Below, piece by piece: positions 1,173 through 41,715 of a stretch of DNA of 64,000 bases (position 1 is its first letter; each line of letters starts with the position of its first letter). The notes below the pieces were generated by a model. That model had not been told where the DNA came from. It saw nothing but the letters and a program-made list of their open reading frames with translations, and did not search any database. Made by a program: the position numbers and the translations under genes. Source of the stretch: Roseibium aggregatum. Its GTDB lineage: Bacteria; Pseudomonadota; Alphaproteobacteria; Rhizobiales; Stappiaceae. Location of the stretch: positions 1,364,001 through 1,428,000 of the forward strand of contig NZ_JAEKJZ010000001.1 in assembly GCF_017309185.1 (NCBI RefSeq), written 5' to 3'.

Positions 1173-1400
1173 CGCCTGTCCGGGGGAGGGGAGGCTGCGT
1201 CGGGATCTAGACAAAACGCCTGAAAATTTGCCGCCAGAAAAAGCAGAATTAATCGGGAAAGCATTGATAAAACGTCTGGTTTGGTTCAAGTGCGTTGGGG
1301 TGAGTTCGACGTTGACGAAAAGAAAACAAGCAACGCATGTCTTGCGGTCACGTGCAAACTGATTAGTGAAAATAAGCTATCACATTCAAAGGTAAATTTG

Positions 1401-7634: not shown

Positions 7635-8432
7635 TCAGCACTTCTGTTTTCCTGAAATGGCCTCCTTGAGGATCGGTAGCAGAAGCCTTCGCATGGTTTC
7701 GTCGGTTGGATGAAGTCCATCGGGAATAGCATCGCGCAGTTGGTTAGCGGAAAGTGTTCGCCAAACCGGCAACGTGTCAATGACATCCACACCATCGTAT
7801 TGGTCCGCGAGGTCATGATACAGCGCTTTGTACGCGGAAAGACCCGGCCTGACCCACTTTCGAGGGCCAAAGGCAGGAGCAAGAGTTGCCAACATCACAT
7901 GAGTTTTCGATTTTTGTGCCTGTGCAATAATTTCATCCAGATTGCGACGGCTCTGGTTCAAGGTAATTCCGCGGTGTAACGCGGCATCATTGGCTGAAAA
8001 GCCAACAATCAGGATGTCCGGCGCCTTTCGGTCAGGTGCAAAAATTTCCGCAAGTTGCTCAACTCCCCAGGTTGAGTTCTCGCCGGGTGTCGCGGTGACC
8101 GAAATTTGGTTTTTGGGGAGCGCGCCGGATGAGGCGTTGTGTTCAGGGTCGCCGCATTGATTGAGAGCGGTTTCGAGCGCGGCAAGCCACGTACCGCGCG
8201 AAAAAAGGCTTGCGCCGAGAAAATGGACGACGCGTGGACCCGCGTTTCGGTTGGGCAGGGTGGTTGCAACCGGTTGGTCGCCCGGTGATGCTGACATTGC
8301 TATGGCCGAAAAAACGCCGTGCGCCTTGAGATAGAGTGCCGACATCGTTGCCGTCGCGCAAATGACCGTAAAGAAAGCCAGGAACATGAGCCTCCAGGAA
8401 GAAATTTTTTGATAAGACGCGTGGAGTCTCAT
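7635..8432 (-). CDS. Membrane-anchored SGNH/GDSL-type hydrolase
   Basis: About 265 residues from ATG 8432. A hydrophobic segment (MFLAFFTVICATATMSALYL) follows a short basic N-terminus, so the catalytic part is probably periplasmic. SGNH blocks are recognisable: FLGASLFSRGTW (block I, Ser nucleophile), GFSANDA (block III Asn) and DGLHPTDE (block V, Asp-x-x-His). Such enzymes in glycan loci act as O-acetyltransferases or acetyl esterases. An upstream in-frame ATG at 8516 would add 28 residues with no recognisable feature; neither start has a strong ribosome site. It stands alone, divergent from the gene at 8632. Confidence 0.75.
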   Translation of the reverse strand: MRLHASYQKISSWRLMFLAFFTVICATATMSALYLKAHGVFSAIAMSASPGDQPVATTLPNRNAGPRVVHFLGASLFSRGTWLAALETALNQCGDPEHNASSGALPKNQISVTATPGENSTWGVEQLAEIFAPDRKAPDILIVGFSANDAALHRGITLNQSRRNLDEIIAQAQKSKTHVMLATLAPAFGPRKWVRPGLSAYKALYHDLADQYDGVDVIDTLPVWRTLSANQLRDAIPDGLHPTDETMRRLLLPILKEAISGKQKC

Positions 8433-8631
8433 AGTAGCTTGTAAGCCGAAAGCAGATGGGACGTTGCATATAATCCGGATGTGCAAAAGAAACACCTCAT
8501 GCAAAGAGTTGCACATTTCTTTGCTTCTTTGACCTGTGCCATACGACCGACTTGCATCCTCAAAAGGTAAGGGTTACGAATTTCGGCGATGAAATTGAAG
8601 TTATTCAAATAAAGAGCAACGCCTTCGGATC

Positions 8632-9766: not shown

Positions 9767-10681
9767 CTATCGTTGCCAATCTGCTTCAAGCTTTGATGTG
9801 AAGGGAATGGCCACCCACAGCATGGTGCATGTCCTGTAAAGGCGGATCACAGTAACTGCTGCGGCGGCTAACATTTTCTCATGTATTGTTGCCAGTTCAT
9901 CAGATCTAACGACAGTGATATATTCTTTTGGGATCGAAAATGTTAGCGCAAAGCTACGTAGGACCCAGATGAGGTGTGACCGGATAGAAGCTGAGGCAGT
10001 GGTGTATTGATGTCCGATGATACGGTTCCATTTGCGCAGCATGTCCTTCATGTTTTCGCGCGCGGGATGAAAGACAAGCATGTCAGGCACGTACGTGGTG
10101 AAGAAGCCGAGAGTGTTTGCTCTTTCACCCCAGTCACGATCCTCCGCGATCGTAATTCCGCCAAAGCCTCCGACTTTCAAGAAAACGTCTCGTCGAAAAG
10201 CAAGGTTCAGAGTTGCGCTATATCCATCACGCTCGATATAGAGTTTTTGCCGAAAGGAAAAAACGCTTTCATAGGCTTCCGTCATAGACTTCTTCGCAGG
10301 ATTTTTGAGCGCGATACGCACATGTCCGCCGATGATCTGCAGCTCCGGGTTCTTGAAAGACGCCTCGATTGTTTCGAGCCAACGTGCATCAGCCATACAA
10401 TCTGAATCGATGCATGCAATGATGGGGGCGCGCGCGCATTCGACGCCCTTGTTGCGGGCAGGGCCCGGTCCTGGCGTCTCTTCTTCGGTGAGTTTAACGT
10501 TTTTGTATCGAGAGCAGATGTTCGTTGGCAATTCTTTCGAACCGTTGTCGACGACTATAATCTCGAAATCAGTCGTCTCCAGGGTCTGTTCGCCTAGCGA
10601 TCGAAGGCATTTTTCCAGAAAGTCTGGCTGGTTCAGATAGGGCACAATCACGCTGATGCGCGGAGCTGGTTTATTTTCCAT
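9767..10681 (-). CDS. Glycosyltransferase family 2
   Basis: 304 residues. RISVIVPYLNQPDFLEKCLRSL starts the GT-A domain; VVDNGSKE is at 43-50 and IACIDSDCMAD (88-98) holds the DXD motif. GGFGGITIAEDRDWGERANTLGF contains the ED motif of processive and non-processive GT2 enzymes. The C-terminal region is hydrophobic (SHLIWVLRSFALTFSIP and TVIRLYRTCTMLWVAIPF) and may include membrane-embedded helices. It begins only 8 bases after the end of the GT4 gene upstream, so they form one transcript. Donor unknown. Confidence 0.85.
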   Translation of the reverse strand: MENKPAPRISVIVPYLNQPDFLEKCLRSLGEQTLETTDFEIIVVDNGSKELPTNICSRYKNVKLTEEETPGPGPARNKGVECARAPIIACIDSDCMADARWLETIEASFKNPELQIIGGHVRIALKNPAKKSMTEAYESVFSFRQKLYIERDGYSATLNLAFRRDVFLKVGGFGGITIAEDRDWGERANTLGFFTTYVPDMLVFHPARENMKDMLRKWNRIIGHQYTTASASIRSHLIWVLRSFALTFSIPKEYITVVRSDELATIHEKMLAAAAVTVIRLYRTCTMLWVAIPFTSKLEADWQR

Positions 10682-10689
10682 CTTCGCCG

Positions 10690-11943
10690 TTAAACGCTTA
10701 CCGATTTTGCCACATCGCTGATCTGCTCTGATTTCAAGAGTGTGCGATACGCCTCGATCAGCGATTGTTTTTCGATTTCCCAGTGGAATTCCCGGCGAGC
10801 CCGTTCGCTTGCGTAAGCGGACATCTGATCACGTTTCTCGGGGTTCTCAAGCAGATCGGTCATGCCTTTCGCAAGTCCTTGCGGGGTCCTGTCCGGCACA
10901 ATCCAGGCGGCCTCTCCGGCATCGATCTTAGCCTGTTCGAGGTCGAACTGAACAAAAGGCATTCCGAGCGCCATATACTCGAACACCTTGTTCATCGACA
11001 ATTTGTCGTTACAAACGTTCGGCGGATCCGGGATTACACCGATGTCACAGGCAGACAGTTTCTCCAGGAGCGGAGCGCCGGAAAGATATCCGGTAAACTC
11101 CACATGCTCGTTCAGCCCGAGTTCGCTCGAGAGCGCACGCAGTCGGTCATAGTCGGGGCCGCTGCCGATGATGATGCAGCCGATGTCATCCCGACCCTCG
11201 ACATTGACGATGTGATCCATGGCCCGGACGAGGTATTCCACGCCATCCTGCTCGGCCATGATGCCGACATATCCGGCGAGATACTTACGGCCGCGCTTTG
11301 CTTCGGTACACGGTTCCGTTCGCTTGAACCGCTCGATGTCCGGAAAACTCCGAACGACCCAAACCTTGTCGGACGGCATTTTGCCGACATCATGGGCTCT
11401 CGTTTTGAGCGTCTCGTTCGTGGCGATACTGCCATCCGCCAAGCGGAAGGTGCAGCGCTCGAAAAACGTCAGGAGCTTGTGAAAGAAGCCTTTTTTTCCG
11501 AACTTCACCTCGTAAAGCTCGGGATTGATGTCGTGCTGGTCAAAAACGAATTTCTTGCCGAAAAACAGCTTGTGGAACAGCGCGACAAGAAAAATCAGAT
11601 CGGGCGGGTTACACGCATGAATAATGTCGAAGCCATGTCTACGCTGTACTCGCACCGACAGAACGAGCTCATGATAGAGGGCGGCAGCGTATTCCGCGAA
11701 ATAGCCGAGAACTCCGGAGGCTTCCAGAGGCAGGCTATGACGGTAGATGTTTATGCCGTCCAGCGTTTCCTCTTTCAGCGTATGTTTCTTGCCAACGGGA
11801 CAGATAACGGATACCTGATACCCTGCGTCACGCAGAGCCGTTGCTTCTTGCCAAACTCTGCGATCGAATGGAACGGGAAGATTTTCGACAATGATCAGGA
11901 CTTTCCCGACGTCAGCGGGCGGATTATTGTTTTCTGCAATCAA
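10690..11943 (-). CDS. Glycosyltransferase family 4 (WbuB/WsaF-like)
   Basis: 417 residues, GT-B fold. VENLPVPFDRRVWQEATALRDAGYQVSVICP is the conserved opening of this subgroup. FVFDQHDINPELY is the acceptor-side motif, GCIIIGSGPDYDRLRAL the donor-domain strand, and GMPFVQFDLEQAKIDAGEAAWIV lies after the E-containing nucleotide loop (NKVFEYMALG). The start is TTG 11943, supported by AGGAG eight bases upstream. It heads a two-gene transcript with the GT2 at 9767 and is divergent from the exosortase gene. Confidence 0.85.
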   Translation of the reverse strand: MIAENNNPPADVGKVLIIVENLPVPFDRRVWQEATALRDAGYQVSVICPVGKKHTLKEETLDGINIYRHSLPLEASGVLGYFAEYAAALYHELVLSVRVQRRHGFDIIHACNPPDLIFLVALFHKLFFGKKFVFDQHDINPELYEVKFGKKGFFHKLLTFFERCTFRLADGSIATNETLKTRAHDVGKMPSDKVWVVRSFPDIERFKRTEPCTEAKRGRKYLAGYVGIMAEQDGVEYLVRAMDHIVNVEGRDDIGCIIIGSGPDYDRLRALSSELGLNEHVEFTGYLSGAPLLEKLSACDIGVIPDPPNVCNDKLSMNKVFEYMALGMPFVQFDLEQAKIDAGEAAWIVPDRTPQGLAKGMTDLLENPEKRDQMSAYASERARREFHWEIEKQSLIEAYRTLLKSEQISDVAKSVSV

Positions 11944-12212: not shown

Positions 12213-13829
12213 ATGAATGCAGACATTAGCAACACCGGACTGAATGTGCCGAAGGACCTCACTTCGTGGTGGCGCCGGGCGCTTCCCTGGATCGCGGTTG
12301 CCGCAGCCGGCGCCGCGGCTTTTTTCTGGGACGGGCTGATTTCCCTCGGGGCCGCCTGGGCGAGACCCGAATACAGCTACGGTCCGCTCGTGCCGCTCAT
12401 TACCGGCTACATGACGCTTAGGGAAATCCACAAGCATCCGGTCAAGCCCGACCACGGCAGCCGGGCCATCGGTCTGATCGTCTTCGCGCTTTCTCTCGCC
12501 ATCGGCCTGGTCGGAAATCTGGTCGAAATCCCTGATATTATAACCTACGGGTTCATTCTTTATATCGGTGCTCTGATCCTTTTGCTTGCCGGTACCCGCG
12601 AAGGCTTTCGGTTCTGGCCGGGTTGGCTGCATCTGGTTTTCATGCTGCCGCTGCCGCAGTTCATTTACCTGCAGGTTTCGACACAACTTCAGAGCATATC
12701 CTCCGTTCTTGGTGTTTCCTTTATCCAGTTCGTCAACATTCCGGTTTTTCTCGACGGCAATGTGATCGACCTTGGAGAATACAAACTCCTCGTCGCGGAA
12801 GCTTGCAGCGGGCTGCGCTATCTATTCCCGCTCTTCAGTTTCGGCTGGCTCATCGCCGTCCTTTACAACGGGCCGAATTGGCACAGGGTCGTCATTTTTC
12901 TGTCCACCATTCCGGTGACGGTTCTCATGAACAGTTTCCGGATCGGGATGATCGGTGTCCTGGTCAATCACTTCGGAATTTCTCAGGCGGAGGGCTTCCT
13001 GCACTTCTTCGAAGGCTGGGTCATTTTTATCTCCTGCACGGCGATCCTTTATTTCGAGGCCTGGATACTGTCCCGCTTCTTTTTGTTCGGTAGACCGCGC
13101 CCCGACTACGTTATCTGGATGGATTTCGAGGGGGTTATGACCCCATTGAAAAAGCTCCCCTCCATGAAGGCCGGGCCGGCGTTCATTGCCGCCTCCGTGT
13201 TCATTCTGCTCGCGGGCTGTCTCTGGCAACTGACACCATCGCAGGTTCCTGCCGCTGTCAGCCGCTCTCCCTTGGGCGTCTTCCCGATGCAATTCGATGG
13301 CTGGCAGGGGAGGGCCTCCATCCTCGACGCGAACATTGAGCAGGTTCTCGGCGCTGACGATTACCTGCTCGCCGACTACCAGAGGGACGGTCAGCAGGTT
13401 AATCTGCTGATGACCTATTACCGGTCCCAAACGGAAGGATCTGGCATTCACTCTCCTGAAATCTGCCTGCCCGGTGGGGGCTGGGAAGTCTCCAAATGGC
13501 GTCAGGAACCGGTGACCATCGATGTCGACGGAAAGCCAAGAACCCTGAATGTAAACCGCGCGATCATTCAACGAGGGCTTCAACGGCAGCTCGTCTACTA
13601 TTGGTTCGAGCAACGTGGGCGCCAGTTGACCAATGATTTCGAGGTGAAGTTTTCTTCGATGTGGGACACTGTCCGTATCGGCCGGTCCGACGGCGGGCTG
13701 GTCCGTGTCGTGACGCCGCTTGGAGATGCGGAGAGCGTGGAGCACGCAGAAGTCCGGCTGGAAAGGTATCTGCAGGATATTGTGCCTCAGTTGCCCGAGT
13801 ATTTTCCTGGAGCAGAGCTGGATAGCTGA
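12213..13829 (+). CDS. Exosortase fused to EpsI domain
   Basis: 538 residues. The N-terminal part (about 20-295) is a multi-pass membrane exosortase with the catalytic triad residues in expected contexts: Cys198 in AEACSGLRYLFP, Arg243 in NSFRIGMIGVLV and His264 in GFLHFFEGWV. The C-terminal part (about 310-538) is an EpsI domain (HSPEICLPGGGW, YYWFEQRGR). Exosortases cut and anchor proteins bearing a PEP-CTERM-like tail, and are tied to exopolysaccharide loci; fused EpsI forms include the alphaproteobacterial XrtD and XrtA groups, and I cannot tell which this is. No protein with a matching C-terminal sorting signal is encoded in the window. EpsI is thought to act in exopolysaccharide export or modification at the periplasmic face. 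Confidence 0.9.
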   Translation: MNADISNTGLNVPKDLTSWWRRALPWIAVAAAGAAAFFWDGLISLGAAWARPEYSYGPLVPLITGYMTLREIHKHPVKPDHGSRAIGLIVFALSLAIGLVGNLVEIPDIITYGFILYIGALILLLAGTREGFRFWPGWLHLVFMLPLPQFIYLQVSTQLQSISSVLGVSFIQFVNIPVFLDGNVIDLGEYKLLVAEACSGLRYLFPLFSFGWLIAVLYNGPNWHRVVIFLSTIPVTVLMNSFRIGMIGVLVNHFGISQAEGFLHFFEGWVIFISCTAILYFEAWILSRFFLFGRPRPDYVIWMDFEGVMTPLKKLPSMKAGPAFIAASVFILLAGCLWQLTPSQVPAAVSRSPLGVFPMQFDGWQGRASILDANIEQVLGADDYLLADYQRDGQQVNLLMTYYRSQTEGSGIHSPEICLPGGGWEVSKWRQEPVTIDVDGKPRTLNVNRAIIQRGLQRQLVYYWFEQRGRQLTNDFEVKFSSMWDTVRIGRSDGGLVRVVTPLGDAESVEHAEVRLERYLQDIVPQLPEYFPGAELDS

Positions 13830-14209: not shown

Positions 14210-14653
14210 CTAGGAATTCGGCTGGTCTAATAGCTCGACGAACTCAATCAGAATTCCCCGAGTTACAACTGGGCTCAAAAAATTGCAGATAAAGTTGCCC
14301 GCGCCTTTCACCGGTTCAGGTTTCAGCATGGGCATGTCTTTCGTCGCGAACTGACGTTGTAGTTCCACCAGGTTTTCTGTTTCGATCGCATAGTGATGAA
14401 GGCCGCCGGCGCCTTTATTGAATTTCGAGAGAGACCCACCGGTAGGGACCACCAGTTCCACGGCCGCTTGCCCGGCAGGTGCATGGCAAAACAAGCACCA
14501 GCACTCAAACTCGGGAACGAAGCCTCTATACTCTTCCTTATGGCCAAAGAGCGCCATGAAATGGTCCGCAGATTCCATATCGGGCATTACGATGCCCACA
14601 TGATGTATTTTGGGAGCGGCTAAAGAAAGTTCCGATATGAGCGTCGGGTTCAT
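14210..14653 (-). CDS. VOC-superfamily protein (methylmalonyl-CoA epimerase-like)
   Basis: 147 residues, a single vicinal-oxygen-chelate unit made of two beta-alpha-beta3 modules. Candidate metal ligands are His18 (IHHVGIV), Glu66 (AAVELVVP), His87 (LHHYAIE) and Glu137 (LIEFVE), the pattern of epimerase/glyoxalase-type members. Its ATG overlaps the stop of the membrane SGNH gene by four bases, so it is the last gene of the leftward operon beginning with the acyl carrier protein. In that context it may isomerise or epimerise the carrier-bound three-carbon acyl group. The substrate is inference; the fold assignment is firm. Confidence 0.8.
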   Translation of the reverse strand: MNPTLISELSLAAPKIHHVGIVMPDMESADHFMALFGHKEEYRGFVPEFECWCLFCHAPAGQAAVELVVPTGGSLSKFNKGAGGLHHYAIETENLVELQRQFATKDMPMLKPEPVKGAGNFICNFLSPVVTRGILIEFVELLDQPNS

Positions 14654-15717
14654 TGTGTCTTCTCGTCGGCAGAAACGGATTTTGGATCATTTTCGGGGGC
14701 AAGCGTCATGGCGATGCGATCTGCTATCCATTGAGCGATCTGGGGGAGTATACGGTCTGAAGCATGTGCGGCGTCGGAGTAATTGCGAGCGTCGTCCATC
14801 ATGAAATCCGCAGTAAAAACCGGACCGAACTGTTCCAGCCACGCCAAGTCACGAGGTTCGTTGTAGCCTTTGTAGAACGGCAAGAACACAAAAGCGACTT
14901 TGGTGCCGTTGGTTTCAGCAAGTTCGAGAATTTTCTTCACATAACTTCGAGAGACACCGAATTCCACCCATCCCAAACTGTCGGGTAAAATGGGGGGCCT
15001 GATCTGTCTGTGTCTTCTGCGCGACTCTTTTTCGAGTGCTTCTTTGTGCTCTGCGTCCGTAAGAGCGCCTTGTCCTGAGCCCCCTTCTTCATTTGGTTTT
15101 CCTGCTGGCCGATAGGATCCTTGATACGTCTCGGGATCGAAGGACGCGCGATAGCCGAATGCTTCCGGCACCAGAGTTGCGACACCGAGTTTGATTTGCC
15201 GCATCGGAAGCTGAATCAAGTTCAATGGAAGGTTCCGATTTACAATCGGCGGGCTGGTAAGGATTTGGGATGGTGTCGCAAGATCCCCGAAGGCCTGGTG
15301 ACCGTCACGCGGCAGGGCTTCGACCACTGGCAGGATAAGTAGCTTGACATCGCGAGTTCTGAACAGCTCTTCGGCTTCGGTATAGCGAATGTCCAGGCCG
15401 GATGCGGGTAGGGAAAGGTTGGCGACGCTATAGGACAGGCCCTTGGCCAAAAGATCCTTTTCAACCAGCCTGGAATCTATGCCTCGTCCCGCCCGCGAAG
15501 ACCCAATTATCACGACATCGATAGGCTTTTCGTCAAAATGAATTCGTTCATATACCCAAGTCAGGCGTTCGAAAATCGTGCCGCGAAAGGATTGATAGCG
15601 GATATACGGGTCCTGAGGAATGGCGCAGGTGATGATAAAGCAGGCAACGAAGGTCGCGGTCACCACAAGAGCAAACCAGCCTAGCGATATTGGACGTCCT
15701 ATCACGACAAGAGCCAC
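14650..15717 (-). CDS. Membrane-anchored SGNH-like protein, DltD/AlgJ-like partner of the MBOAT
   Basis: 355 residues, GTG start. One N-terminal transmembrane helix (residues 13-31) is followed by a periplasmic-type domain with IDVVIIGSSRAGRGID (GSS at 72-74, SGNH block I) and, near the C-terminus, DAAHASDRILPQIAQWIA, a D-x-x-H block V. This is the layout of DltD and AlgJ/AlgX proteins, which accept an acyl group from an MBOAT channel and place it on a polymer. It lies six bases after the MBOAT stop. The middle (about 190-235) is a low-complexity charged insert. Role as acyl-transfer partner is inferred from fold and neighbourhood. Confidence 0.7.
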   Translation of the reverse strand: MALVVIGRPISLGWFALVVTATFVACFIITCAIPQDPYIRYQSFRGTIFERLTWVYERIHFDEKPIDVVIIGSSRAGRGIDSRLVEKDLLAKGLSYSVANLSLPASGLDIRYTEAEELFRTRDVKLLILPVVEALPRDGHQAFGDLATPSQILTSPPIVNRNLPLNLIQLPMRQIKLGVATLVPEAFGYRASFDPETYQGSYRPAGKPNEEGGSGQGALTDAEHKEALEKESRRRHRQIRPPILPDSLGWVEFGVSRSYVKKILELAETNGTKVAFVFLPFYKGYNEPRDLAWLEQFGPVFTADFMMDDARNYSDAAHASDRILPQIAQWIADRIAMTLAPENDPKSVSADEKTQ

Positions 15718-15723
15718 CTTGAG

Positions 15724-17280
15724 CTAGAAATTAAAGTAGATGAATTCCGTTTGCGCGCGTGAAATGAAGGCAATACCGAGAAAGAGAACAATACCGGTCC
15801 AAACAGCCCACAACGCAGTCGGGCGCCAGGTCAACGGAATAACCGGCAAGGCAACTTTCCGCCAGCGTTCCCATTCCAAAACTGGACGATATCGGCTCAG
15901 GAGTTGCTGAGTGTTCGGTGCCAGTGCGACGATAAACACACAACACAAAACGAAGAGGAAGGGTTCGCTGAAAACCTCAGCCAAGGTTCCCGGAAACGCC
16001 TCCCACGCTCCAGTAATTTGGTTGATTTGAAACATTGCCGCCCAGATCGTCCAGGCATCCTGTGGGGTAACTGCTCGGAACATGACGTTGGCCAGCACAA
16101 CACAGGCAAGTGTGATCAGGTAGTAGACTGTAACGGTCAACTGACCGGGGCCACCACCACGTCTGCGTTTCTTTCGCATGAGCAGACGCCAGCACTCGTT
16201 TACGGCCAAGTATGTGCCGTGCATGAGACCGAAGAGAACAAACGTCCAGGCCGATCCGTGCCACAAGCCGATTATTATGAACACGAGCACAGTCGGCGCG
16301 GCGACCGTGACAAAAAAGGAGCCCCACTTCCCGTATCCCCGATCGACAGAAAACCGCGCAAGCGGAAGAACCAGGGGCTGATACATGTAGTTTACGATAA
16401 AGTGCTGCAAGGTTATGTGCCACCGCCGCCAGTATTCAATAATTGATCCTGCACGCAATGGCGAATGGAAATTTACCGGGAGCCGGATACCGAACATCCT
16501 CGCAAGGCCGATTGCCATGTCGGAGTATCCGGAAAAATCAAAGTAAAGTTGTATGGTGTAGCAACTTGCCGCTTTCCACCCCATCAAAAGATCAATCGGC
16601 TGGCCTGCGTGGGCTGCGTCAAATACCGGGGAGGCGAACGTGGCGGCGCTATCGGCTATAACTGTTTTCTTAAACAGCCCAATAGCAAAGATCGTGAGAC
16701 CCACAGCGAGATCGGCCCGCCAGAAGCGTCCGAGGTTCCGCCCGAAGAACTGCGGCATCATTTCCTTGTAGTGGACGATCGGGCCGGCGATGAGCTGAGG
16801 AAAAAATATGACGAAGGTGGCGTAGCGCCAAATTCCGCCCGCCTTTACTTCTCCGCGCGCGATGTCAACAAGATAGGCAATTTGTTGAAAGGTGTAGAAC
16901 GAAATCGCGAGAGGAAGAATGATGTTGTCGAGAGTCCATTGAGTGGATGTGACAGCATTTACGTTGTCTACAAAGAAGTTAGCGTATTTGAACCAGCCAA
17001 GGATAGCGAGGTTGCCGACGGTTCCGAGCAGCAAGCTTAGTCCATTGGATTTGTTTTTTTCCGCGCGGGTTTGGATGATTTTGCCGCAAACATAGTTTCC
17101 AAGGACGGAGCCTATGAGCAGAAACACATATGGCGGGTTCCAAACGCTGTAGAAGACCAAGGACGCGAAAACGAGAAATAGAAATATCCAGTCTCGTTTG
17201 CCGAAGTAAATCAGACCGTAGTATCCCGCGAGCGTGAACGGGAGAAACAGGAAGATAAACTGAAGGGAGCTGAACAGCAT
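15724..17280 (-). CDS. MBOAT family O-acyltransferase (AlgI/DltB-like)
   Basis: 518 residues with about ten membrane segments. The family core is clear: YFDFSGYSDMAIGLARMFGIRLPVNFHSP, EYWRRWHITLQHFI and IIGLWHGSAWTFVLFGLMHGTYL with the invariant histidine in the membrane. MBOATs of this class (AlgI, DltB, PatA) carry an acyl group across or within the inner membrane for esterification of an extracellular polymer. AlgI uses an unknown acetyl donor, DltB a D-alanyl carrier protein. Here an acyl carrier protein and an FkbH-like loading enzyme are in the same operon, so a carrier-protein donor is plausible. Start ATG 17280. Confidence 0.9.
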   Translation of the reverse strand: MLFSSLQFIFLFLPFTLAGYYGLIYFGKRDWIFLFLVFASLVFYSVWNPPYVFLLIGSVLGNYVCGKIIQTRAEKNKSNGLSLLLGTVGNLAILGWFKYANFFVDNVNAVTSTQWTLDNIILPLAISFYTFQQIAYLVDIARGEVKAGGIWRYATFVIFFPQLIAGPIVHYKEMMPQFFGRNLGRFWRADLAVGLTIFAIGLFKKTVIADSAATFASPVFDAAHAGQPIDLLMGWKAASCYTIQLYFDFSGYSDMAIGLARMFGIRLPVNFHSPLRAGSIIEYWRRWHITLQHFIVNYMYQPLVLPLARFSVDRGYGKWGSFFVTVAAPTVLVFIIIGLWHGSAWTFVLFGLMHGTYLAVNECWRLLMRKKRRRGGGPGQLTVTVYYLITLACVVLANVMFRAVTPQDAWTIWAAMFQINQITGAWEAFPGTLAEVFSEPFLFVLCCVFIVALAPNTQQLLSRYRPVLEWERWRKVALPVIPLTWRPTALWAVWTGIVLFLGIAFISRAQTEFIYFNF

Positions 17281-17379
17281 TTGATCTATGCCTACTTAGC
17301 GAACTTGCTGGCCTGCAAAACTTTTCAAAAAGAGGCAGCGTAAACAGCTCAAGTCGCAGCGTTTTTTGTGCCTACCCAC

Positions 17380-18330
17380 TTAAACAGCTGGAGTAGCGAG
17401 CATGCAGGCGGAAATGGAGACTTTTCGGCGCAATGCTTTGTCGATCGGGGTTCCTTTCGTCGCGTAGAAGTCCTCGGCGACAATCTTGAATCCGGTTTCA
17501 GTCAGCAGTGCGCGCGCATCGTCAAGTGTTTGCATGAGATACAAATGATCCGGAGACGGGCTATTTATCGGAACATTGACAAAAACGTAGGCGCCCTCGG
17601 TCGTTAAGCTGCGAATGTGTCGCATCGCGATCATTGGATCTTCGAGGTGTTCCAGAATTTCGCTTAGAACAATAAGGTCAAATTCCGCCTCGCCGGGGCT
17701 CAACTCCATGATGTCCCGGACGCCGAAATTGATATTGTCAAAGCCTAACAGGGAAAGTGCGTGTTTTGTCTGCTCTATCGAAACAGCCGACAAGTCCCAG
17801 GCCGTTGCAAAATCGAGGTCGAATTCCCGCAGGGCCAGATACATCATCAACCCATGACCCGGGCCGATTTCGAGGTATCGGCTTTTCGCGGGCAGGATCT
17901 TGGGGGTTGTGGTCAAAAAGAAATGGCAACTGGCTGCGTGATTGAACCAGAGGACCTGGCTGAACAAGAGGCCATCCATATATTTTTCCATATAGGCGGC
18001 GTTTGAATAGACTTCCTCGTTGGCCTCGGCGAAGGTTGAGAGACGGTAGCGGCCTTCCCGATGAAAAAACAGTTCTTCGTCTCTCAGCCGGTCACAGGTC
18101 CATCGGTAATGTGTTGCGATACGGTCGATTTTAGACCCTGCCAGCAACAATGCCGCGCTGGCTAAAGTTTCAGTGGTCTGCATCAACTCCGGGCTACGCT
18201 CGGACATGCTTTTTAAAATAAAGTCGTTGTGCTCGGGCCAGGCGCGCAACACCGCGCCGGCAATCTCTTTCGTGGCGGGAAAGGGATCGAGAAAACTATT
18301 CAGCTGGGCTGTTTTAGCGTTTTGGTTCAT
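17380..18330 (-). CDS. Class I SAM-dependent methyltransferase
   Basis: 316 residues. The SAM-binding motif RYLEIGPGHGLMMYLAL is at 151-167, the acidic loop ATAWDLSAVSIEQTKHAL follows, and FDLIVLSEILEHLEDP is motif IV of the small-molecule methyltransferase class. The 130-residue N-terminal helical region is longer than the minimal fold. Its ATG overlaps the stop of the FkbH-like gene by four bases, so translation is coupled. In methoxymalonyl-ACP pathways FkbH glyceryl-ACP is later O-methylated; by analogy this enzyme may methylate the carrier-bound acyl group or the sugar. That is inference. Confidence 0.85.
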   Translation of the reverse strand: MNQNAKTAQLNSFLDPFPATKEIAGAVLRAWPEHNDFILKSMSERSPELMQTTETLASAALLLAGSKIDRIATHYRWTCDRLRDEELFFHREGRYRLSTFAEANEEVYSNAAYMEKYMDGLLFSQVLWFNHAASCHFFLTTTPKILPAKSRYLEIGPGHGLMMYLALREFDLDFATAWDLSAVSIEQTKHALSLLGFDNINFGVRDIMELSPGEAEFDLIVLSEILEHLEDPMIAMRHIRSLTTEGAYVFVNVPINSPSPDHLYLMQTLDDARALLTETGFKIVAEDFYATKGTPIDKALRRKVSISACMLATPAV

Positions 18331-20255
18331 ATCGTTTCTGAAATCGGTTCTGGGTGTTGGTCAAAAAGAACGAGTTTCATCGGCAGGGTTGGAACCTCGT
18401 AGGTTTCAAGGTCCAAACGCCAAAGGGTACCGACCGGATCTGCTTCCCCATCGGCTTGAAAGCCGAGCTTCTGAAAGTGATTGGCCACCATTGCGTTCTT
18501 GGCAGTAGGCAAATATTCGCCTACCAGATATTTGGCTCCTGACTGCTTGGCCGCGGAGGCCACAACTGAAAGTGCGGCTTCTTCCACTCGCCGGCCTAAC
18601 ACTCTGCAGCTCATGAGCCAGCTGTCGCAGATCCACTCCTGACTTCCTTTCTTGAATATCAGGACAGAAATCATGCCGTTGTCCCCGAACTTGTCGACCA
18701 GCCTAACTTGAAGATCGAATATGTCGGGGTCCGTTTCCATAGAAGCGACCTGGGCTTCCGTATAGCGGCGCGTCGTGAGATTGAACTGATTGGACTTGTT
18801 GATCAGTTGCGCAATTCTCGTTCGGCCGACTTTGTCGAATTGTTGAAGCGAACACGTCATGTCCAAAGAAAGCAAGTAATCGTCGTAGTTGCCGATTTGC
18901 TCCAGTGCGACAGCGCGTTCTGCGTTGGCTTTGTATTGATCGGGGCGCTTTGCATCGTCTGCGGAAAGCCCGACCGTTTCAAAGTAGCCTGCATGCGCCA
19001 AGGCTGAAGGGTAGAACGCGGGGTCATCGGGCAGCTCCGGAACAGCAACCTCCGGAAGCATCTGCCTTACCCTTTGTCTTTCTGCGGGGTTGTCGTCCAG
19101 AAAGGCGAGGGCATCAGTTCCTATGTTCAGCGTTTTGGCGACGTGCTGGATGTTTGTGGCCTTGTCATTCCAGTTTGCAAGGAAAACGGCAATGTCATCT
19201 TCCTTCAGCAACATGTCCGGGTGCTCGCGGAACGGCAACCGGGCAGCAGCATCCTCGTTCTTGGAAACGACAGCCAAGACAATACCGCGTTTTTTAAGGT
19301 CGAGCGCAAATGACTGAATCGCGAGAAAGGCCTCACCGTCCGCGGAGCCTTGCCCCAGTCTGATGCCTTCCACTCCATCATCGCCGATGACACCGCCCCA
19401 ACATGTGTTGTCGAGATCCAGCACCAGACATTTGCGCGACTTCCCGCGTATAGCAGAAAGGACCCTCGAAACGTGGTCTGCATAAAGGGGGACATAGTCC
19501 ATGGAGAACGGCAATTTGGCTCGGTGCCAGTAGCTGTGATCGAACCAGCTGGATCGTCCTATCTGACCCGCGAGATTGGCCACGTCTAGAATAACCGCCG
19601 AACTTTCGCTGGCAAGTTCGAACAGCGCACGATTGAAGGCTTCGATCATTGAACTGATCGATCCGTCAATTCGACGGTCGTAGTTCCCGCACCAGGGTTC
19701 AGCCGGCGCGGGCATGGTCTGAAGAATTGTCGTCGTTCCCCGGTGCGCCAGCGCACGCACGATTGCCTGAATTTTTGACAGGGCAATTGCGACTGTTTCG
19801 CTCGCGCTTTCCGCCGAAAAGTGAGGGGAAGACATACCAAGGCTACGGTAGTCGGAAACCACCAGCGCGACCTCAGGATTGAACGCCGCCAGGCCGCTTT
19901 CCGGATCTAACGCTTCTTGCACAGCCTGACCGTACGCGGGCGCATAAACTTCAGCAACAAATCCGTGGCGCGGACAACTTCCTTCGATTGCGGGTATGAG
20001 GTGTTCAGTCGTTCCGTCCGATAGAAGAGCGACCTTGACTTTTGTCAGTGCCGCCAACTTTCCTGAATTTTCCAGCTTTTTGATTGTTTTGGAAAAAGCG
20101 GTGAGCTGATCGACGTTCATCGCGCAGGAACCGAGGCGAACGAGATCATTCGGCTGCACGTTTTCCTCGCCTTCAACGAGTGATTTGCCTCGCTTCCTGA
20201 AATCGTTTGGCGCCGGGGGAAGCCAGCTCAAGCCCTTGAGCGAAAAATCACTCAT
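18327..20255 (-). CDS. FkbH-like HAD-IIIC family enzyme, predicted glyceryl-ACP loader
   Basis: About 642 residues from ATG 20255 (AAAGAG six bases upstream; a TTG further out is less likely). The central HAD domain carries CLVLDLDNTCWGGVIGDDG, with the D-x-D-x-T motif near residue 282, and VVSKNEDAAA and AFLDDNPAERQRV as motifs II and IV. The N-terminal 250 residues are the SGNH-like region usual in long FkbH proteins, and the C-terminus is a GNAT-like domain (FNLTTRRYTEAQV, WLMSCRVLGRRVEEAAL). Characterised FkbH enzymes dephosphorylate 1,3-bisphosphoglycerate and load D-glycerate as thioester on a carrier protein. The acyl carrier protein gene lies directly upstream. Confidence 0.9.
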   Translation of the reverse strand: MSDFSLKGLSWLPPAPNDFRKRGKSLVEGEENVQPNDLVRLGSCAMNVDQLTAFSKTIKKLENSGKLAALTKVKVALLSDGTTEHLIPAIEGSCPRHGFVAEVYAPAYGQAVQEALDPESGLAAFNPEVALVVSDYRSLGMSSPHFSAESASETVAIALSKIQAIVRALAHRGTTTILQTMPAPAEPWCGNYDRRIDGSISSMIEAFNRALFELASESSAVILDVANLAGQIGRSSWFDHSYWHRAKLPFSMDYVPLYADHVSRVLSAIRGKSRKCLVLDLDNTCWGGVIGDDGVEGIRLGQGSADGEAFLAIQSFALDLKKRGIVLAVVSKNEDAAARLPFREHPDMLLKEDDIAVFLANWNDKATNIQHVAKTLNIGTDALAFLDDNPAERQRVRQMLPEVAVPELPDDPAFYPSALAHAGYFETVGLSADDAKRPDQYKANAERAVALEQIGNYDDYLLSLDMTCSLQQFDKVGRTRIAQLINKSNQFNLTTRRYTEAQVASMETDPDIFDLQVRLVDKFGDNGMISVLIFKKGSQEWICDSWLMSCRVLGRRVEEAALSVVASAAKQSGAKYLVGEYLPTAKNAMVANHFQKLGFQADGEADPVGTLWRLDLETYEVPTLPMKLVLFDQHPEPISETI

Positions 20256-20291
20256 CGCGATCTCTTTCGTCAATTCTCTGGCGCTAATACG

Positions 20292-20534
20292 CTAGCCGAG
20301 TTTGTCACTAATGGAATCTACGAGGTCACCCACGCACTGCATTTTCTCTATTTCAGCGTTGGAGAAGCGTATCTTGAAGCTACGTTCGACAGCGGCCACA
20401 AGCCTAACGTGACTGAGACTGTCCCATTCTTCGACTTCTTCCGCGCTTGTAGAATCCTGCAAGTCAAAGTCATCCAAATCCATTACGTCCAAAAAAATAT
20501 CAGAGAGCTGTTCAAATATAGAAGATCTGTTCAT
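20292..20534 (-). CDS. Acyl carrier protein
   Basis: 80 residues from ATG 20534 (an in-frame GTG at 20555 would add seven). The four-helix carrier fold is indicated by EEWDSLSHVRLVAAVE with the phosphopantetheine-attachment Ser39 in DSL, and by the acidic N-terminal helix (DIFLDVMDLDDFDLQD). It is not the fatty-acid AcpP, whose surroundings and DSLD motif differ, but a dedicated carrier like FkbJ or DltC. It opens the leftward operon; the FkbH-like gene follows within 40 bases. It must be activated by a phosphopantetheinyl transferase encoded elsewhere. Confidence 0.9.
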   Translation of the reverse strand: MNRSSIFEQLSDIFLDVMDLDDFDLQDSTSAEEVEEWDSLSHVRLVAAVERSFKIRFSNAEIEKMQCVGDLVDSISDKLG

Positions 20535-20848: not shown

Positions 20849-21742
20849 CTACTTGGAGTAGTCATACTGAGGGCCGGGGTGGATCGGGAAGACACCGAAG
20901 CGCCGTTTATCGTCCAGCACCCGTTTCACAATCTCGACTGTGATTTCGTCGCTTTCCGTCGCAAATCCGTAAAGCAGTGCGGTATCGCACAAGGTGTTTA
21001 TAAGGCGAGGGGTGCCCTGCGTTGCGTAAAAAACCAGATCGCAGGCTCCGGAGGTGAAGAGTGGCCTTGTCGCTCCGGCCACTTCCAGACGGTGTTCGAT
21101 GTATCCCTTGACTTCCTGCTGATCCAGAAAGGAAAGGTGAAAATCGGAAGACACCCTTTGGACAAACTGCCTCAGGCTGGGCGCGGCCAGGAGGGTCTTC
21201 AACTCGGGTTGACCGCTCAGGACAATCTGCAGCAACTCCCGCTCATGGGTGTTCAAGTTCGACAACATGCGCAACTCTTCGAGAGTTTCAGCCCCGAGGT
21301 TTTGCGCTTCGTCCACGATGAGGACGGTTCGCCGCCCAAGACTGTGTTGCTCTAGTAGAAAATCCTTGAAACGCTTGTAGAGAGCGACATGCGAGCCGGA
21401 TTCGAAGTCCTGGTCGAAAGCCATCAGGACCCATTCCAGCAGGTCGCCACCACCACCCGTGTTCGCGAGTAGACCGACTGCAACGTCGCCTGGAAGCTTG
21501 CTCAGCAGGTGCTGGATCAAAGTCGTTTTGCCGGCGCCAACTTCTCCGGTGATCACAGTGAAACCGGCGTGATTGACGATACCATATTCCAGCATGGCAA
21601 ATGCCATGCTGTGTGGCCCCGCCCAATAGATAAAACGTGGATCGGGGACCAGTGCAAACGGCTTTGTCAAGAGACCGTAATACGGCTCATACATCATTGT
21701 CCCCGGTGTCGGTGGAGGTTCAATTTTTAAGTTTGCTTGCAT
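20849..21742 (-). CDS. XrtA/PEP-CTERM-type ExeA-like AAA ATPase
   Basis: 297 residues. MMYEPYYGLLTKPFALVPDPRFIYW is the characteristic opening of the ATPase found in exosortase-linked polysaccharide loci. Walker A is GEVGAGKTT (66-74), Walker B is VLIVDEAQNL, followed by sensor 1 LQIVLSGQPELK and the arginine-rich HRLEVAGATRP region. Homologues relate to ExeA/GspA, which energise assembly of envelope complexes. The true start may be ATG 21697 or 21694, which follow a GGGG and give the usual MYEPYYGL beginning; the 5' extension is weakly supported. It is the right-hand neighbour of the tyrosine kinase on the same strand with a 515-base gap. Confidence 0.85.
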   Translation of the reverse strand: MQANLKIEPPPTPGTMMYEPYYGLLTKPFALVPDPRFIYWAGPHSMAFAMLEYGIVNHAGFTVITGEVGAGKTTLIQHLLSKLPGDVAVGLLANTGGGGDLLEWVLMAFDQDFESGSHVALYKRFKDFLLEQHSLGRRTVLIVDEAQNLGAETLEELRMLSNLNTHERELLQIVLSGQPELKTLLAAPSLRQFVQRVSSDFHLSFLDQQEVKGYIEHRLEVAGATRPLFTSGACDLVFYATQGTPRLINTLCDTALLYGFATESDEITVEIVKRVLDDKRRFGVFPIHPGPQYDYSK

Positions 21743-22257
21743 CGGCTTTTTTCAGCAAACCATATTACCTAATAAACAGACTTTGTTGCAGTGCAAGCGT
21801 TTTCCATTGATTGCACTAAGCAAGAGTTGGAATCATTGTTCAACAAATAACTCTAGGAATGGTAAATTCCCTGGCTGCAAATTTTGCCGGGCTTTTCAAG
21901 TGAAAACAATTTGCCGTCATCGGGTTTTAATCATCGCCTAAAGGATCATGGTAAGAGACGATTGCGGCAGAAACTCAGCAGGCGACCAGTTTTTGAAACA
22001 GGGTGCAGCTTCATCGTTCAATGATCTAGGCCGGAGCAGAAAACGACTTGTCCGGCTGATATTCCCTTTCGGTTCATTGGCCAGTAAATCTCAAATCTGT
22101 TCGAGCTGGTATCAATTAGAAATCAGCAACTTTTGGATCGGGACTCGAGGAGAGGGGTTTCTGCCTCGACGTTTTTCTTTCAAGAAAGGCAGTACTCAAG
22201 TCAATCTGATCCGATGCTGGAGCAAGGCTGTTTTTGTGAAGCACCCGAAGGGATCGA
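21743..22257. other. Intergenic region in the exosortase locus
   Basis: 515 bases between the ATPase start and the tyrosine-kinase stop, both genes reading left. The part next to the ATPase is AT-rich and should contain its promoter. I found no convincing gene. A near match to a -24/-12 sigma-54 element has a spacing one base too short. Confidence 0.4.
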
Positions 22258-23085
22258 TCAATAGTAGTATTCTTCAGTCGATGCGTTTTCACACTTGTTC
22301 AGAACCAGGCCGAGAAGCTTGTCCAGTTCGCTTATCTGCAATTCGCATTCGTCCACTTCGGTCGTTGTCGTCGTACCGGCGGCAACGACCAGTAATGCGG
22401 TATCTACACGTGGAAGGAAGGCCAAGGCGTCGTCGCTGCTCCGCATCGGCGGCAGGTCGAAGACGACGACATCGGGCGTCAGGGACGTCTGAATGAAACT
22501 GAAAAGGTCCAGCATGTTGGGAGCCTGAATCAGTTCCGATGACGACGGCGTGTGGCCGCTGTTCAAACCGACGATCAGATTTTCATCCACCTGAACGAAA
22601 CAGTCCTCGGGCTTCGCCCTTCCAAGCAGGAATTGAGCGATGGAGGACTTGGGCTCGACATTCAGCGTCGGAGCGATGGAAGGTCTCTTGAGATCCAGGT
22701 CGACCAGAACCGTTTTCAGGCCCGGCGACCGCGCCAGGCTGAAAGCCAGATTGAGGGATACCATGGTCTTTCCGCAACCGGGCGTCGGCGAGGTAACCGC
22801 AAGCGTCTTCCATTTGTTGTCGAACATTGCCTTCCTGACACGGGTTCGCAGCAAATTGAAGGCAATATGGTTCGGATCGCTCATCGACTGGGAAACGATG
22901 CGCTTCTTCTCCAGATGTTTTGGGTCAATTTTCACTGTGCGCAGAGCGGGGGGCGCCGTGTCCCGCACCTTCTGAGAGCTGGTCGGGCTGGGCTTGACCT
23001 GCACCGGTGTGACCGTTTTTTCCGCAGGCTGGTGGTTTTCACTCAGCACGCCGGCTTTTTGCAGAGCGCTTTTGATATGTTCCAC
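22258..23085 (-). CDS. Tyrosine autokinase of the CpsD/CapB type, exosortase-locus form
   Basis: 275 residues, GTG start with GGAG seven bases upstream. Walker A TSPTPGCGKT is at 98-107, Walker A' VLVDLDLKRP at 126-135 and Walker B VVVFDLPP at 206-213. The C-terminus ends in EEYYY, a short tyrosine cluster that is the expected autophosphorylation tail. Bacterial tyrosine kinases of this type cycle with a Wzz-like membrane activator to regulate polysaccharide polymerisation and export; here the activator is a separate protein encoded directly upstream (23378-24931). The unusual P-loop ending GCGKT rather than GEGKS is still a valid Walker A. Confidence 0.9.
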   Translation of the reverse strand: MEHIKSALQKAGVLSENHQPAEKTVTPVQVKPSPTSSQKVRDTAPPALRTVKIDPKHLEKKRIVSQSMSDPNHIAFNLLRTRVRKAMFDNKWKTLAVTSPTPGCGKTMVSLNLAFSLARSPGLKTVLVDLDLKRPSIAPTLNVEPKSSIAQFLLGRAKPEDCFVQVDENLIVGLNSGHTPSSSELIQAPNMLDLFSFIQTSLTPDVVVFDLPPMRSSDDALAFLPRVDTALLVVAAGTTTTTEVDECELQISELDKLLGLVLNKCENASTEEYYY

Positions 23086-23377
23086 TCATATTCTCCGATT
23101 CAGGCTGTCTAAAGCACGGTCCAAAAAACTCAGATTTGCGTCAAACCCGCAAAGGAGAGTGAGCGATCGTCTGCAGAGCAATGGGTGCGCAAAATGCAAA
23201 GGCTTTGCTCCAAATCTTCAGAGCCGGATCAGCGGCCTTCGGCTCGACCGGAAACCATGCGGCTCGTAAGCCGTAAAATTTCGAAAACCTTCCCGGTCTC
23301 CAGCTATTTCGAATCTTGAACACAGCCATTTCCCGATCGCCCCTAAAACTGAAGTTGTGATCCCGTGCTCTGGACTG

Positions 23378-24931
23378 TCAAGGTAGGCTGAGGTTTGGTA
23401 ACAGAGGCTGAATCTTTTCCAGAACACGTTCTGCAATCAGATCCAGCGGCAGCACAAAAACATGCACAAGTGCAAGCACGGCGGCGATTCCCGCGATAGT
23501 GATCACTGTTATCGAGAGCCGGCGCACCAATCTTGCCCGGCGCTCTTCTTCCGTCATCATGTAAGGAATAACTGCGATCGGGCGAAGTTGTAAACGCCGT
23601 TCCAGATCGCTCGCAGTGCGAATGCTTTTATCCAGAAACTCCAGAAGAAGAGCGAGCCCCACGCCAATCGCGACACCGCCGGCTCCGCCAGCAAGAACGA
23701 TCAGTTTCCTGTCTGGCTTGGAAGGCTTTTCCGGAACCGTGGCCTGTTCGAGCACTTCGAAACGCTCGGCCTGCCGGTCCTGTTCGAGTCGTTCTCCGAT
23801 TTGAGCGTCGGTCAGTTTCGCTTTCGTCTGGCTGTATTCCCGTTGCAGGTTCTCGTACTCGCGGTTCATCGCGGCAAGTTCAACTTCGATCACCGGCGTT
23901 GATGAAATGCTTTTCTTCAGATCGTCGGCTCTAGTTTTAAGTTCGTTCCGGCGCCCTTTGAGCAGTTCCATTCTGGTATTGGGATCAGCGGTATAGCCCT
24001 GCTGCGCCAGTTGAGCCTTGATTGCCGTGATTTCGATTTCGGCCTGGGCGATCTGCCGCTCAAGGTCAGCCATGGTCTTCTTGGACACATACCCTTTTTC
24101 GGCCAGAGGAGTAAGCAGCTCACGGCGTTCCACAAAAGCGTCGTAATTGAGTTGCTGGGACTGAAGCCGAAAGTCCAGCTGTTGAGTGCTCAGCTCATCG
24201 CTACCCGCGTCACCCGTGCTGATTTGTTCCGCGAGTCTGATTTCCTGATCGATTTGAGCGATCTGCGCATTGACTTCGCTAAGTTCGACACGGCGGTCAG
24301 TCAGTGTTTCTGGAAGTGCTGCTTCGTTTTCCCGTTTGAAGGACGCGATCTTGGCCTCAAGTGCGAGAAGGTTGGTTTCCAGTGTGCGCAGCTGCTGTTG
24401 GAAAAAGTTACTGGTTTCCGCAGCGCGGCCGAGCCGGGTTTCCAGGTTTCTGGAAAGAATTGAAGAGACCAGCTCGTTCGTGACCCGAGCGACGGTCGTT
24501 GCCTCCGGATATTGAAAGGAGACATTGAAACCGACTATTTCCGTATTTCTGCGCGATGCGGCGACATCGATTTGGTCGATCGTGATTGCGGCGCGCATGG
24601 CATCCACAATCGAGGTTGGAGAGGGAACCTCCTCTCCGTTTCGATAAAGGGCAAACTTGTCGGCAATACTGAGCAGGTTCTCGCGGGCCAGAAGACGCTG
24701 CTCGATCACCTTGATGCGTTCGCTCGGACTGGCCGTGACCGTGGAAGACGCCAACTCGCTCGGGATGCGTTGGGACTCGATCAGAATAACTGCCTTCGAT
24801 TCGTAACTGCGCGGCAGCATATAGGCGACGACAACCGTTACTGCGAAAACGACCACCGCAGGAAGAATTACATACAGGTATCGGCGTCGAACGATCGCCC
24901 AAATTCCATTTAGATCAAAGCTATCTTCCAT
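23378..24931 (-). CDS. GNVR/Wzz-type chain-length determinant of the exosortase system
   Basis: 517 residues. An N-terminal membrane helix (YLYVILPAVVVFAVTVVVAYML) follows the short cytoplasmic part; the periplasmic region (about 60-420) is rich in coiled-coil segments such as the stretch from ETSNFFQQQLRTLETN on. A second helix (LIVLAGGAGGVAIGVGLALLLEFLD) closes the Wzz unit and a third hydrophobic segment (VITIAGIAAVLALVHVFVL) lies near the C-terminus, as in XrtA-linked members. It lacks a kinase domain; the kinase is the next gene downstream. Together they set chain length and gate export. AGGA lies a few bases before ATG 24931. Confidence 0.88.
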   Translation of the reverse strand: MEDSFDLNGIWAIVRRRYLYVILPAVVVFAVTVVVAYMLPRSYESKAVILIESQRIPSELASSTVTASPSERIKVIEQRLLARENLLSIADKFALYRNGEEVPSPTSIVDAMRAAITIDQIDVAASRRNTEIVGFNVSFQYPEATTVARVTNELVSSILSRNLETRLGRAAETSNFFQQQLRTLETNLLALEAKIASFKRENEAALPETLTDRRVELSEVNAQIAQIDQEIRLAEQISTGDAGSDELSTQQLDFRLQSQQLNYDAFVERRELLTPLAEKGYVSKKTMADLERQIAQAEIEITAIKAQLAQQGYTADPNTRMELLKGRRNELKTRADDLKKSISSTPVIEVELAAMNREYENLQREYSQTKAKLTDAQIGERLEQDRQAERFEVLEQATVPEKPSKPDRKLIVLAGGAGGVAIGVGLALLLEFLDKSIRTASDLERRLQLRPIAVIPYMMTEEERRARLVRRLSITVITIAGIAAVLALVHVFVLPLDLIAERVLEKIQPLLPNLSLP

Positions 24932-24985
24932 TGATCCTAACCATTGTTGCCCAATCCGCGCATATTGAAGCCAGTATGAAACAGT

Positions 24986-27433: not shown

Positions 27434-27469
27434 TAATCCATGCTCCTGCAATTTAGAAATACGAACCAT

Positions 27470-38355: not shown

Positions 38356-38462
38356 GGTGCAGTTTCCCTGTTTCCGCCCCCAGGTTTCTTAACCGAACCT
38401 GTCGGGCACTGGAACCGCACACTAGCAAAGGGAGGTGAGTTCTCCGTTAATTGACGGAGGGT

Positions 38463-39020: not shown

Positions 39021-39217
39021 CGACGACTCTCCTACAATTCGCAGGACAGCATCGCGTGTTATGGTTAATCGAGGGTGAAGAGAGCAATCGCGGCGGCATC
39101 CGGTCCGTGAACGGGGAAATGTCTTGGTTAATCGACGGGGCCGCGCAATTTCGGGAAGTTTAACCGATCGCTTACCCTAATTCGACATAGTTTGTCGGAA
39201 TCTGGAGTTTCGAAACG
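39021..39217. promoter_or_regulatory. Divergent promoter region of the export genes
   Basis: 197 bases between the starts of the Wza-like and GumC-like genes. It is the only space for both promoters. Specific -35/-10 elements were not resolved. Confidence 0.35.
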
Positions 39218-41692: not shown

Positions 41693-41715
41693 AAAATCTG
41701 CCGGGCGGGCCGCTG

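Follow-up and report, generated by a model that had tools for sequence, protein, structure and literature searches.

What does a compact set of six genes do inside an exosortase-type polysaccharide locus of Roseibium aggregatum? We analysed a stretch of 64,000 nucleotides of its genome (the window; contig NZ_JAEKJZ010000001.1, positions 1,364,001 to 1,428,000 of the forward strand), in which six minus-strand genes at positions 14210-20534 encode, in that order, an acyl carrier protein (ACP), an FkbH enzyme, a methyltransferase, an MBOAT, an SGNH protein and a VOC protein. With moderate confidence overall, we read this operon as an acylation system of the MBOAT-SGNH type that depends on a carrier protein and acts on the polysaccharide made by the surrounding XrtD exosortase locus; its acyl group would be glycerate-based and edited on the carrier. 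The features of the operon are as follows.

20292..20534, minus strand: stand-alone ACP (PP-binding); start ATG at 20534, or GTG at 20555 giving a longer frame
18327..20255, minus strand: FkbH (HAD-IIIC) enzyme (TIGR01686), presumed glyceryl loader; start ATG at 20255 or TTG at 20273
17380..18330, minus strand: class I S-adenosylmethionine methyltransferase (Methyltransf_23) whose N-terminal domain is helical; presumably O-methylates the acid on the ACP
15724..17280, minus strand: MBOAT (PF03062), which presumably takes the acyl group of acyl-ACP across the membrane
15727..15744, minus strand: C-terminal FIYFNF acyl-shuttle motif of the MBOAT, with Tyr515 (motif as in passages of PMC12148441)
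14650..15717, minus strand: SGNH protein, assigned by fold and residues, which has a single N-terminal membrane helix and is presumably the final transferase
14210..14653, minus strand: VOC protein (Glyoxalase_4), stop at 14210; presumably isomerises or epimerises the acid on the ACP

All six open reading frames (ORFs) lie leftward in the order given by the first-pass annotation, and its operon ends fit, with the VOC stop at 14210 and a possible ACP start codon (ATG) at 20534. Its description of tiny gaps or 4-base overlaps holds for FkbH/methyltransferase and SGNH/VOC (4-base overlaps), for MBOAT/SGNH (6 bases) and for ACP/FkbH (18 bases to TTG 20273, 36 to ATG 20255), but not for methyltransferase/MBOAT, which are 99 bases apart. 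The G+C content of the operon genes is 0.45-0.54.

From this gene content we infer the following route. FkbH would take a glyceryl group from 1,3-bisphosphoglycerate and place it on the phosphopantetheine of the ACP, where the methyltransferase would O-methylate the acid and the VOC protein would invert its C2. The MBOAT would then move the acyl group from acyl-ACP across the membrane onto Tyr515 of its own FIYFNF tail, from which the SGNH serine would take it and esterify the polymer in the periplasm.

Recurrence of the gene set was assessed in 80 loci (labels L0xx), the best of 115 relatives by similarity to the window FkbH and hence a biased sample. The ACP was found in 72 of these loci, an MBOAT in 63 and both in 60, and an SGNH-type gene directly adjoined the MBOAT in 57 of the 63 MBOAT loci; the record titles name Proteobacteria, Acidobacteria, Myxococcales and Bacteroidota among them. 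Because they had been picked by FkbH similarity, we took an independent sample of 289 genomes of the window's own class, presumably Alphaproteobacteria, with 31 FkbH genes over the cut-off (two sub-cut-off matches, G300 and G389, were left out, the former with an MBOAT on the same contig, and two pieces in G153 were counted once). An MBOAT lay within 10 kb of 15 of the 31 FkbH genes (14 of 30 without the window), compared with 0.2 expected from genome sizes and MBOAT numbers with contig ends ignored. Since the set recurs and FkbH-MBOAT neighbourhood so far exceeds expectation, the association is more than chance, and the predicted co-occurrence of FkbH, ACP, MBOAT and SGNH-type genes was borne out across phyla. 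Conserved linkage of all six genes, on which the first-pass annotation had staked its reading, was seen in part: linkage of the four-gene core is widespread, but the complete set of six stands together in only 3 of the 80 loci (L011, L012 and L026). We found no published description of an FkbH-MBOAT family; the literature matching both names concerned cyanobacterial peptides only, with subscription journals mostly uncovered. FkbH, MBOAT and glyceryl together gave no literature match, and wider searches gave none among the matches listed.

In the charging half, the ACP passed the PP-binding model narrowly (23.7 bits, Pfam cut-off 20.8), and the D-S pair that includes the phosphopantetheine serine (W-D-S motif) was kept in 65 of 65 aligned ACPs. 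The FkbH gene, the single FkbH match found in this genome, scored 284.6 bits on TIGR01686, about twice the NCBIfam cut-off of 146.65, and 63.2 bits on FkbH_N PF21211 (cut-off 27); its closest PDB sequence was 3slr. D286, D288, K338, D393 and C556 (numbering of the 648-aa frame) were kept in 81 of 81 FkbH rows, and the first four are presumably the HAD catalytic residues. The carrier stands next to an FkbH domain that scores over a curated cut-off. Glyceryl-ACP is made by FkbH with a stand-alone ACP in tetronate- and methoxymalonate-type pathways (passages of PMC7489565). Judged by sequence, the acyl group quite likely derives from glycerate.

In the membrane half, the MBOAT (PF03062, 77.5 bits, Pfam cut-off 27), the single one found in the genome, had DltB (8jem and 6bug) as its closest PDB sequences and reached 164.2 bits on the DltB equivalog TIGR04091, short of the cut-off of 375. 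H288 and H341 were kept in 65 of 65 MBOATs. The last six residues of the window protein are FIYFNF; a Y-x-x-F end (Y515, F518) was present in all 64 MBOATs with a complete C-terminus, and the strict FxYxxF end in 39 of 66 (loci plus window). PatA acetylates the tyrosine of its C-terminal hexapeptide, from which PatB then accepts the acetyl group, while the Dlt shuttle motif sits on a separate protein, DltX (passages of PMC12148441). As the MBOAT of the window carries the motif at its own C-terminus, its membrane half appears to be built like PatA. The Dlt-like design first suggested for the operon thus survives in the carrier protein as presumed donor, but not in the membrane half; a DltA-like ligase was not seen among the six genes.

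The SGNH gene returned one irrelevant sub-cut-off Pfam match, no NCBIfam match and, against PDB sequences, nothing up to E 1. The top PDB fold match of its predicted model was DltD (6pfx, E 2e-3, probability 0.99), and more DltD chains stood within the first 11 fold matches listed; no match of any kind reached E 0.001 or better. G-S-S-R and D-x-A-H were invariant in all six members of its family (S73/S74, D315, H318). The SGNH-type genes beside MBOATs fall into five gene families, the window's own being the fifth; in Pfam, one of the other four exceeds the GDSL cut-off, two match below cut-off and one has no match. All five consensus sequences keep G-x-S and later D-x(1,2)-H or similar, and a simple pattern search was uneven across the families (block I in 25/28, 2/10, 6/6, 2/6 and 2/5). 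Carrier-protein-dependent MBOAT-SGNH acylation of an envelope glycan is, in our judgement, very probable.

We next consider the genes that may edit the acyl group. The window methyltransferase matched Methyltransf_23 (58.5 bits, Pfam cut-off 27), and its predicted model (pLDDT 92.2) had natural-product methyltransferases such as RdmB, DnrK and MmcR as best PDB fold matches. Its homologues were found in 5 of the 80 loci and on two plasmids (Paroceanicella and Tistrella). O-Methylglycerate has been proposed as the product of O-methyltransferase-FkbH-peptidyl carrier protein modules in suomilide and varlaxin (passages of PMC10143770 and PMC13122637); by analogy, these modules are the nearest precedent for a methyltransferase acting on carrier-bound glycerate. 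We lean slightly towards the window enzyme acting on the ACP-bound acid.

The VOC protein matched Glyoxalase_4 (48.5 bits, Pfam cut-off 27) and the methylmalonyl-CoA epimerase model TIGR03081 below cut-off (53.2 bits, cut-off 114.95). The aligned metal-ligand positions H, E, H, E were kept in all nine members of its group, and the position of the epimerase's second catalytic Glu held Glu in only three of the nine; we take these roles over from methylmalonyl-CoA epimerase. The protein is therefore not a canonical methylmalonyl-CoA epimerase, an identity we rejected on both the sub-cut-off score and the second Glu, and this step is the weakest link of the acylation reading. In VOC enzymes, glyoxalase I and methylmalonyl-CoA epimerase among them, a metal site acts next to a thioester, so that C2 inversion is the natural guess for the window protein. 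A C2 epimerase is a tentative assignment by analogy, which we hold at slightly less than an even chance. Inversion at C2 would agree with the L-, not D-, glycerate of gellan (passages of PMC9104527 and PMC9737242).

VOC was present in 20 of the 80 loci, in two sequence groups, and a MaoC dehydratase and/or SDR reductase, fused or separate, in another 20 (L022 by a weak hit, L032 with SDR only, and seven with a separate MaoC at E 1e-13 to 1e-16). The two never shared a locus (0 observed, 5 expected, naive P 0.001); without the weak VOC hits L028 and L079 the counts were 18 and 20, again with none shared (naive P 0.003), and kinship makes all such P values for locus counts too small. The FkbH tree (84 rows) was built quickly and leaves 25 of its 81 inner branches open; on it, no fewer than 19 changes are required for the VOC/MaoC state and no fewer than 7 for the methyltransferase. 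Mutual exclusion of this kind would be expected if alternative editors acted on one carrier-bound unit, and from these sequence patterns we read VOC and MaoC/SDR as candidate alternative editors of a C3 unit. In the MaoC/SDR relatives, loss of the 3-OH through MaoC would yield an enol or pyruvyl unit, which SDR would reduce to lactyl. The bryostatin loading module is reportedly a precedent for FkbH with a dehydratase giving lactate; no printed precedent was found among the literature matches listed. As to the O-methylation or isomerisation step proposed at first, the editors are optional across loci (methyltransferase in 5, VOC in 20 and MaoC/SDR in another 20 of the 80), so that the group transferred need not be plain glycerate in every such system.

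Beyond the operon, the window holds the following neighbouring genes.

12213..13829, plus strand: exosortase XrtD (VPLPA-CTERM type; TIGR04152, 583.1 bits, cut-off 400)
9767..11943, minus strand: GT2 and GT4 glycosyltransferase genes (Pfam/NCBIfam matches)
20849..27469, minus strand: Xrt-type ATPase, tyrosine autokinase, chain-length determinant and PrsT TPR protein (first three below cut-off, PrsT over)

Thus XrtD, GT4 and GT2 lie downstream of the operon, and the ATPase, kinase, chain-length determinant and PrsT upstream. XrtD was present in 2 of 30 other genomes searched, both congeners. One of them (G013) preserves the gene order of the window for GT4, exosortase, ATPase, kinase, chain-length determinant and TPR protein, but its exosortase-ATPase interval measures about 1.2 kb compared with 7 kb in the window, which makes it an empty site; in the other (G016), the upstream genes are inverted. 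FkbH occurred in 9 of 121 kin genomes at E 1e-20, the window's own counted, with a best other identity of 38%. Because of the empty site and the rarity of FkbH among kin, the operon looks like a movable block. The placement in an exosortase polysaccharide locus, claimed from the start, is supported by XrtD exceeding its cut-off and by the same locus lying empty at the operon site in the congener. In Ruegeria atlantica (L011), the six-gene block lies between a GT2 homologue and an XrtD homologue (49%); GT4 and GT2 homologues precede the block in L012; and a 60-kb plasmid of Rhodobacteraceae bacterium SC52 carries ACP-FkbH-MBOAT-SGNH-VOC near sulfotransferase and glycosyltransferase genes. The renewed position beside XrtD and GT2 homologues in Ruegeria supports the XrtD-locus reading, and we consider the XrtD-locus polysaccharide the probable acceptor.

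Other genes of the window also touch on polysaccharide modification. A hexapeptide-repeat acyltransferase gene at 1281-1853 (plus strand) lies 12 kb away from the operon. Homologues of it (56-57%) immediately follow VOC in L015 (13051-13467) and L099 (12385-12801), and further ones occur in the congeners G013 and G016; the acyltransferase may act with the operon. The XrtD locus contains a second GDSL/SGNH-type protein at 7635-8516 (minus strand; PF13472 over cut-off), possibly a de-esterase or transferase, and an FkbM-type methyltransferase (PF05050) at 2102-3088 (minus strand), apart from the operon methyltransferase. A second polysaccharide locus at 37126-44183 comprises a glycosyltransferase, a Poly_export protein, an exopolysaccharide transport protein and a PgaB-like deacetylase match; two of its genes have a G+C content of 0.62-0.63, above that of the operon.

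FkbH also occurs with other partners. On a Paroceanicella profunda plasmid (L100, 9687-14789), an unclassified 439-aa gene and mprF come after ACP-FkbH-methyltransferase-VOC, and the stretch contains no MBOAT. On the Tistrella plasmid, the methyltransferase lies between ACP and FkbH on the opposite strand, the MBOAT ends in EFIYAGF and the next gene has SGNH-like motifs. Sinorhizobium meliloti 1021 pSymB (L103, 5315-10463) has an MBOAT ending in FLYQGF, an unclassified 409-aa ORF, ACP and FkbH in a row; its FkbH match is split over two reading frames in this record but is unbroken in several other S. meliloti records. Four loci with FkbH and no MBOAT (L065, L067, L068 and L078) carry an unclassified family of about 295 aa (F37), and on a Niveispirillum plasmid (L102) FkbH, ACP and SDR accompany a gene for a WcbI polysaccharide acetyltransferase, again with no MBOAT. 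BLASTP of F37 against a WcbI protein gave no match, and a Pfam scan of F37 and the L100 439-aa protein returned nothing. Other transferases may take acyl-ACP at the MBOAT-less loci. An unannotated human-faeces phage record (MT835480.1, 71500-73119) also contained a relative of FkbH, with 37.8% identity across 83% of the query.

Several observations weigh against the acylation reading of the window operon. No MBOAT was found beside 17 of the 80 and 16 of the 31 FkbH genes, some of them on short contigs, and the MBOAT-less Paroceanicella set implies that ACP-FkbH-methyltransferase-VOC can work with a different transferase. Confidence in the SGNH model is low (mean pLDDT only 63.5). The methyltransferase adjoins the core in just 5 of the 80 loci, so that its role is poorly tied, and the epimerase's second Glu is absent from most of the VOC group. 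These last two points, with the 20 of 80 loci that have VOC and with L015 and L016, where VOC is present without the methyltransferase, favour a core that works as proposed while the methyltransferase acts on the glycan or another acceptor, VOC acts otherwise, or neither is needed. We regard this as a serious possibility that nonetheless falls clearly short of even, since both genes adjoin ACP and FkbH in Paroceanicella even without an MBOAT, in Tistrella the methyltransferase, though on the opposite strand, stands between them, and its repeated changes on the FkbH tree suggest a module tied to the core.

The acceptor might instead be a lipid, the glycan of a sorted protein or another envelope polymer, as the occurrence of the core in other settings such as Tistrella, and of the Paroceanicella set beside mprF, would allow. 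We consider this unlikely, given that the operon is inserted within an exosortase polysaccharide locus and that in L011 and L012 it once more neighbours XrtD or glycosyltransferases of the same families. Somewhat less likely still is the same membrane relay carrying an acyl group that is not a glycerate derivative, with this FkbH branch loading another small hydroxyacid. To our knowledge, rather few members of the FkbH family have been tested, and the PDB knows the window FkbH only through 3slr, a structure of untested function; however, the FkbH model was passed at twice its cut-off with the HAD residues kept, and the MaoC/SDR and VOC partners fit hydroxyacyl-thioester chemistry. A polyketide or peptide pathway using methoxymalonyl-ACP or glyceryl-ACP, in whose clusters FkbH, ACP and methyltransferase do co-occur (passages of PMC7489565), is highly improbable and largely refuted by gene content: the six genes include no dehydrogenase, such a route has no use for an MBOAT or an SGNH protein, and the longest listed ORF has at most 865 aa, so the window contains no modular synthase.

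If the acylation reading holds, the operon may represent a widespread third class of transmembrane polymer acylation, with an FkbH-charged carrier, interchangeable editors (VOC for D- to L-glyceryl, methyltransferase for methylglyceryl, MaoC plus SDR for lactyl), an MBOAT with its own acyl-tyrosine shuttle and an SGNH transferase supplied by it; we hold this generalisation to be possible, if on balance doubtful. It would explain L-glyceryl and lactyl esters on bacterial polysaccharides, perhaps including the L-glycerate of gellan. Among MBOAT-SGNH systems, carrier-protein use is described for Dlt only (passages of PMC12148441); a second carrier-protein class, charged from a glycolytic intermediate and edited on the carrier, would widen the range of acyl groups placed outside the membrane. 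The gene set would also serve as a genomic marker for glycerate-decorated, perhaps lactate-decorated, polysaccharides, and the origin of glyceryl esters such as those of gellan would become directly testable.

Compared with known systems, the operon shares with FkbH pathways (tetronate, methoxymalonate, and the suomilide and varlaxin modules) an FkbH and a carrier together with a methyltransferase (passages of PMC7489565, PMC10143770 and PMC13122637), but it has no synthase or oxidation genes, and its unit would pass to a membrane transferase. Neither of the two glyceryl-ACP-oxidising dehydrogenases of methoxymalonyl-ACP operons is among the six genes, and a methoxymalonyl or tetronate cluster was ruled out by gene content. 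Native gellan carries an L-glyceryl ester (passages of PMC9104527 and PMC9737242, both citing Kuo 1986), and the product of the operon would likewise be a polysaccharide bearing glycerate esters; no named gene for gellan glyceryl transfer appeared among the literature matches listed, including the passages of those two papers. Dlt (DltA-DltC-DltX-DltB-DltD) resembles the operon in the carrier protein as presumed donor, the DltB-like MBOAT and the SGNH protein, tentatively DltD-like by its best fold match. In contrast to Dlt, FkbH replaces the DltA ligase (no DltA-like domain was found among the six genes, the only ones searched), the setting is a Gram-negative type polysaccharide locus, and the shuttle motif is on the MBOAT itself. 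Of the two gaps examined for a DltX-like gene, that between MBOAT and SGNH (6 bases) leaves no room and that before the MBOAT measures 99 bases. Membership of Dlt was rejected for want of a DltA-type ligase among the six genes and because the MBOAT reached 164 of the 375 bits required by the DltB equivalog. PatA-PatB and AlgI-AlgJ/X resemble the operon in an MBOAT with a C-terminal FXYXXF and an adjacent SGNH partner, but are described as acyl-CoA users without a carrier (passages of PMC12148441), whereas the window operon has an ACP and a loading enzyme. Thus, by its sequence features, the system appears to be neither Dlt nor Pat/Alg, and would join a carrier-protein donor of the Dlt kind to a built-in shuttle of the Pat kind.

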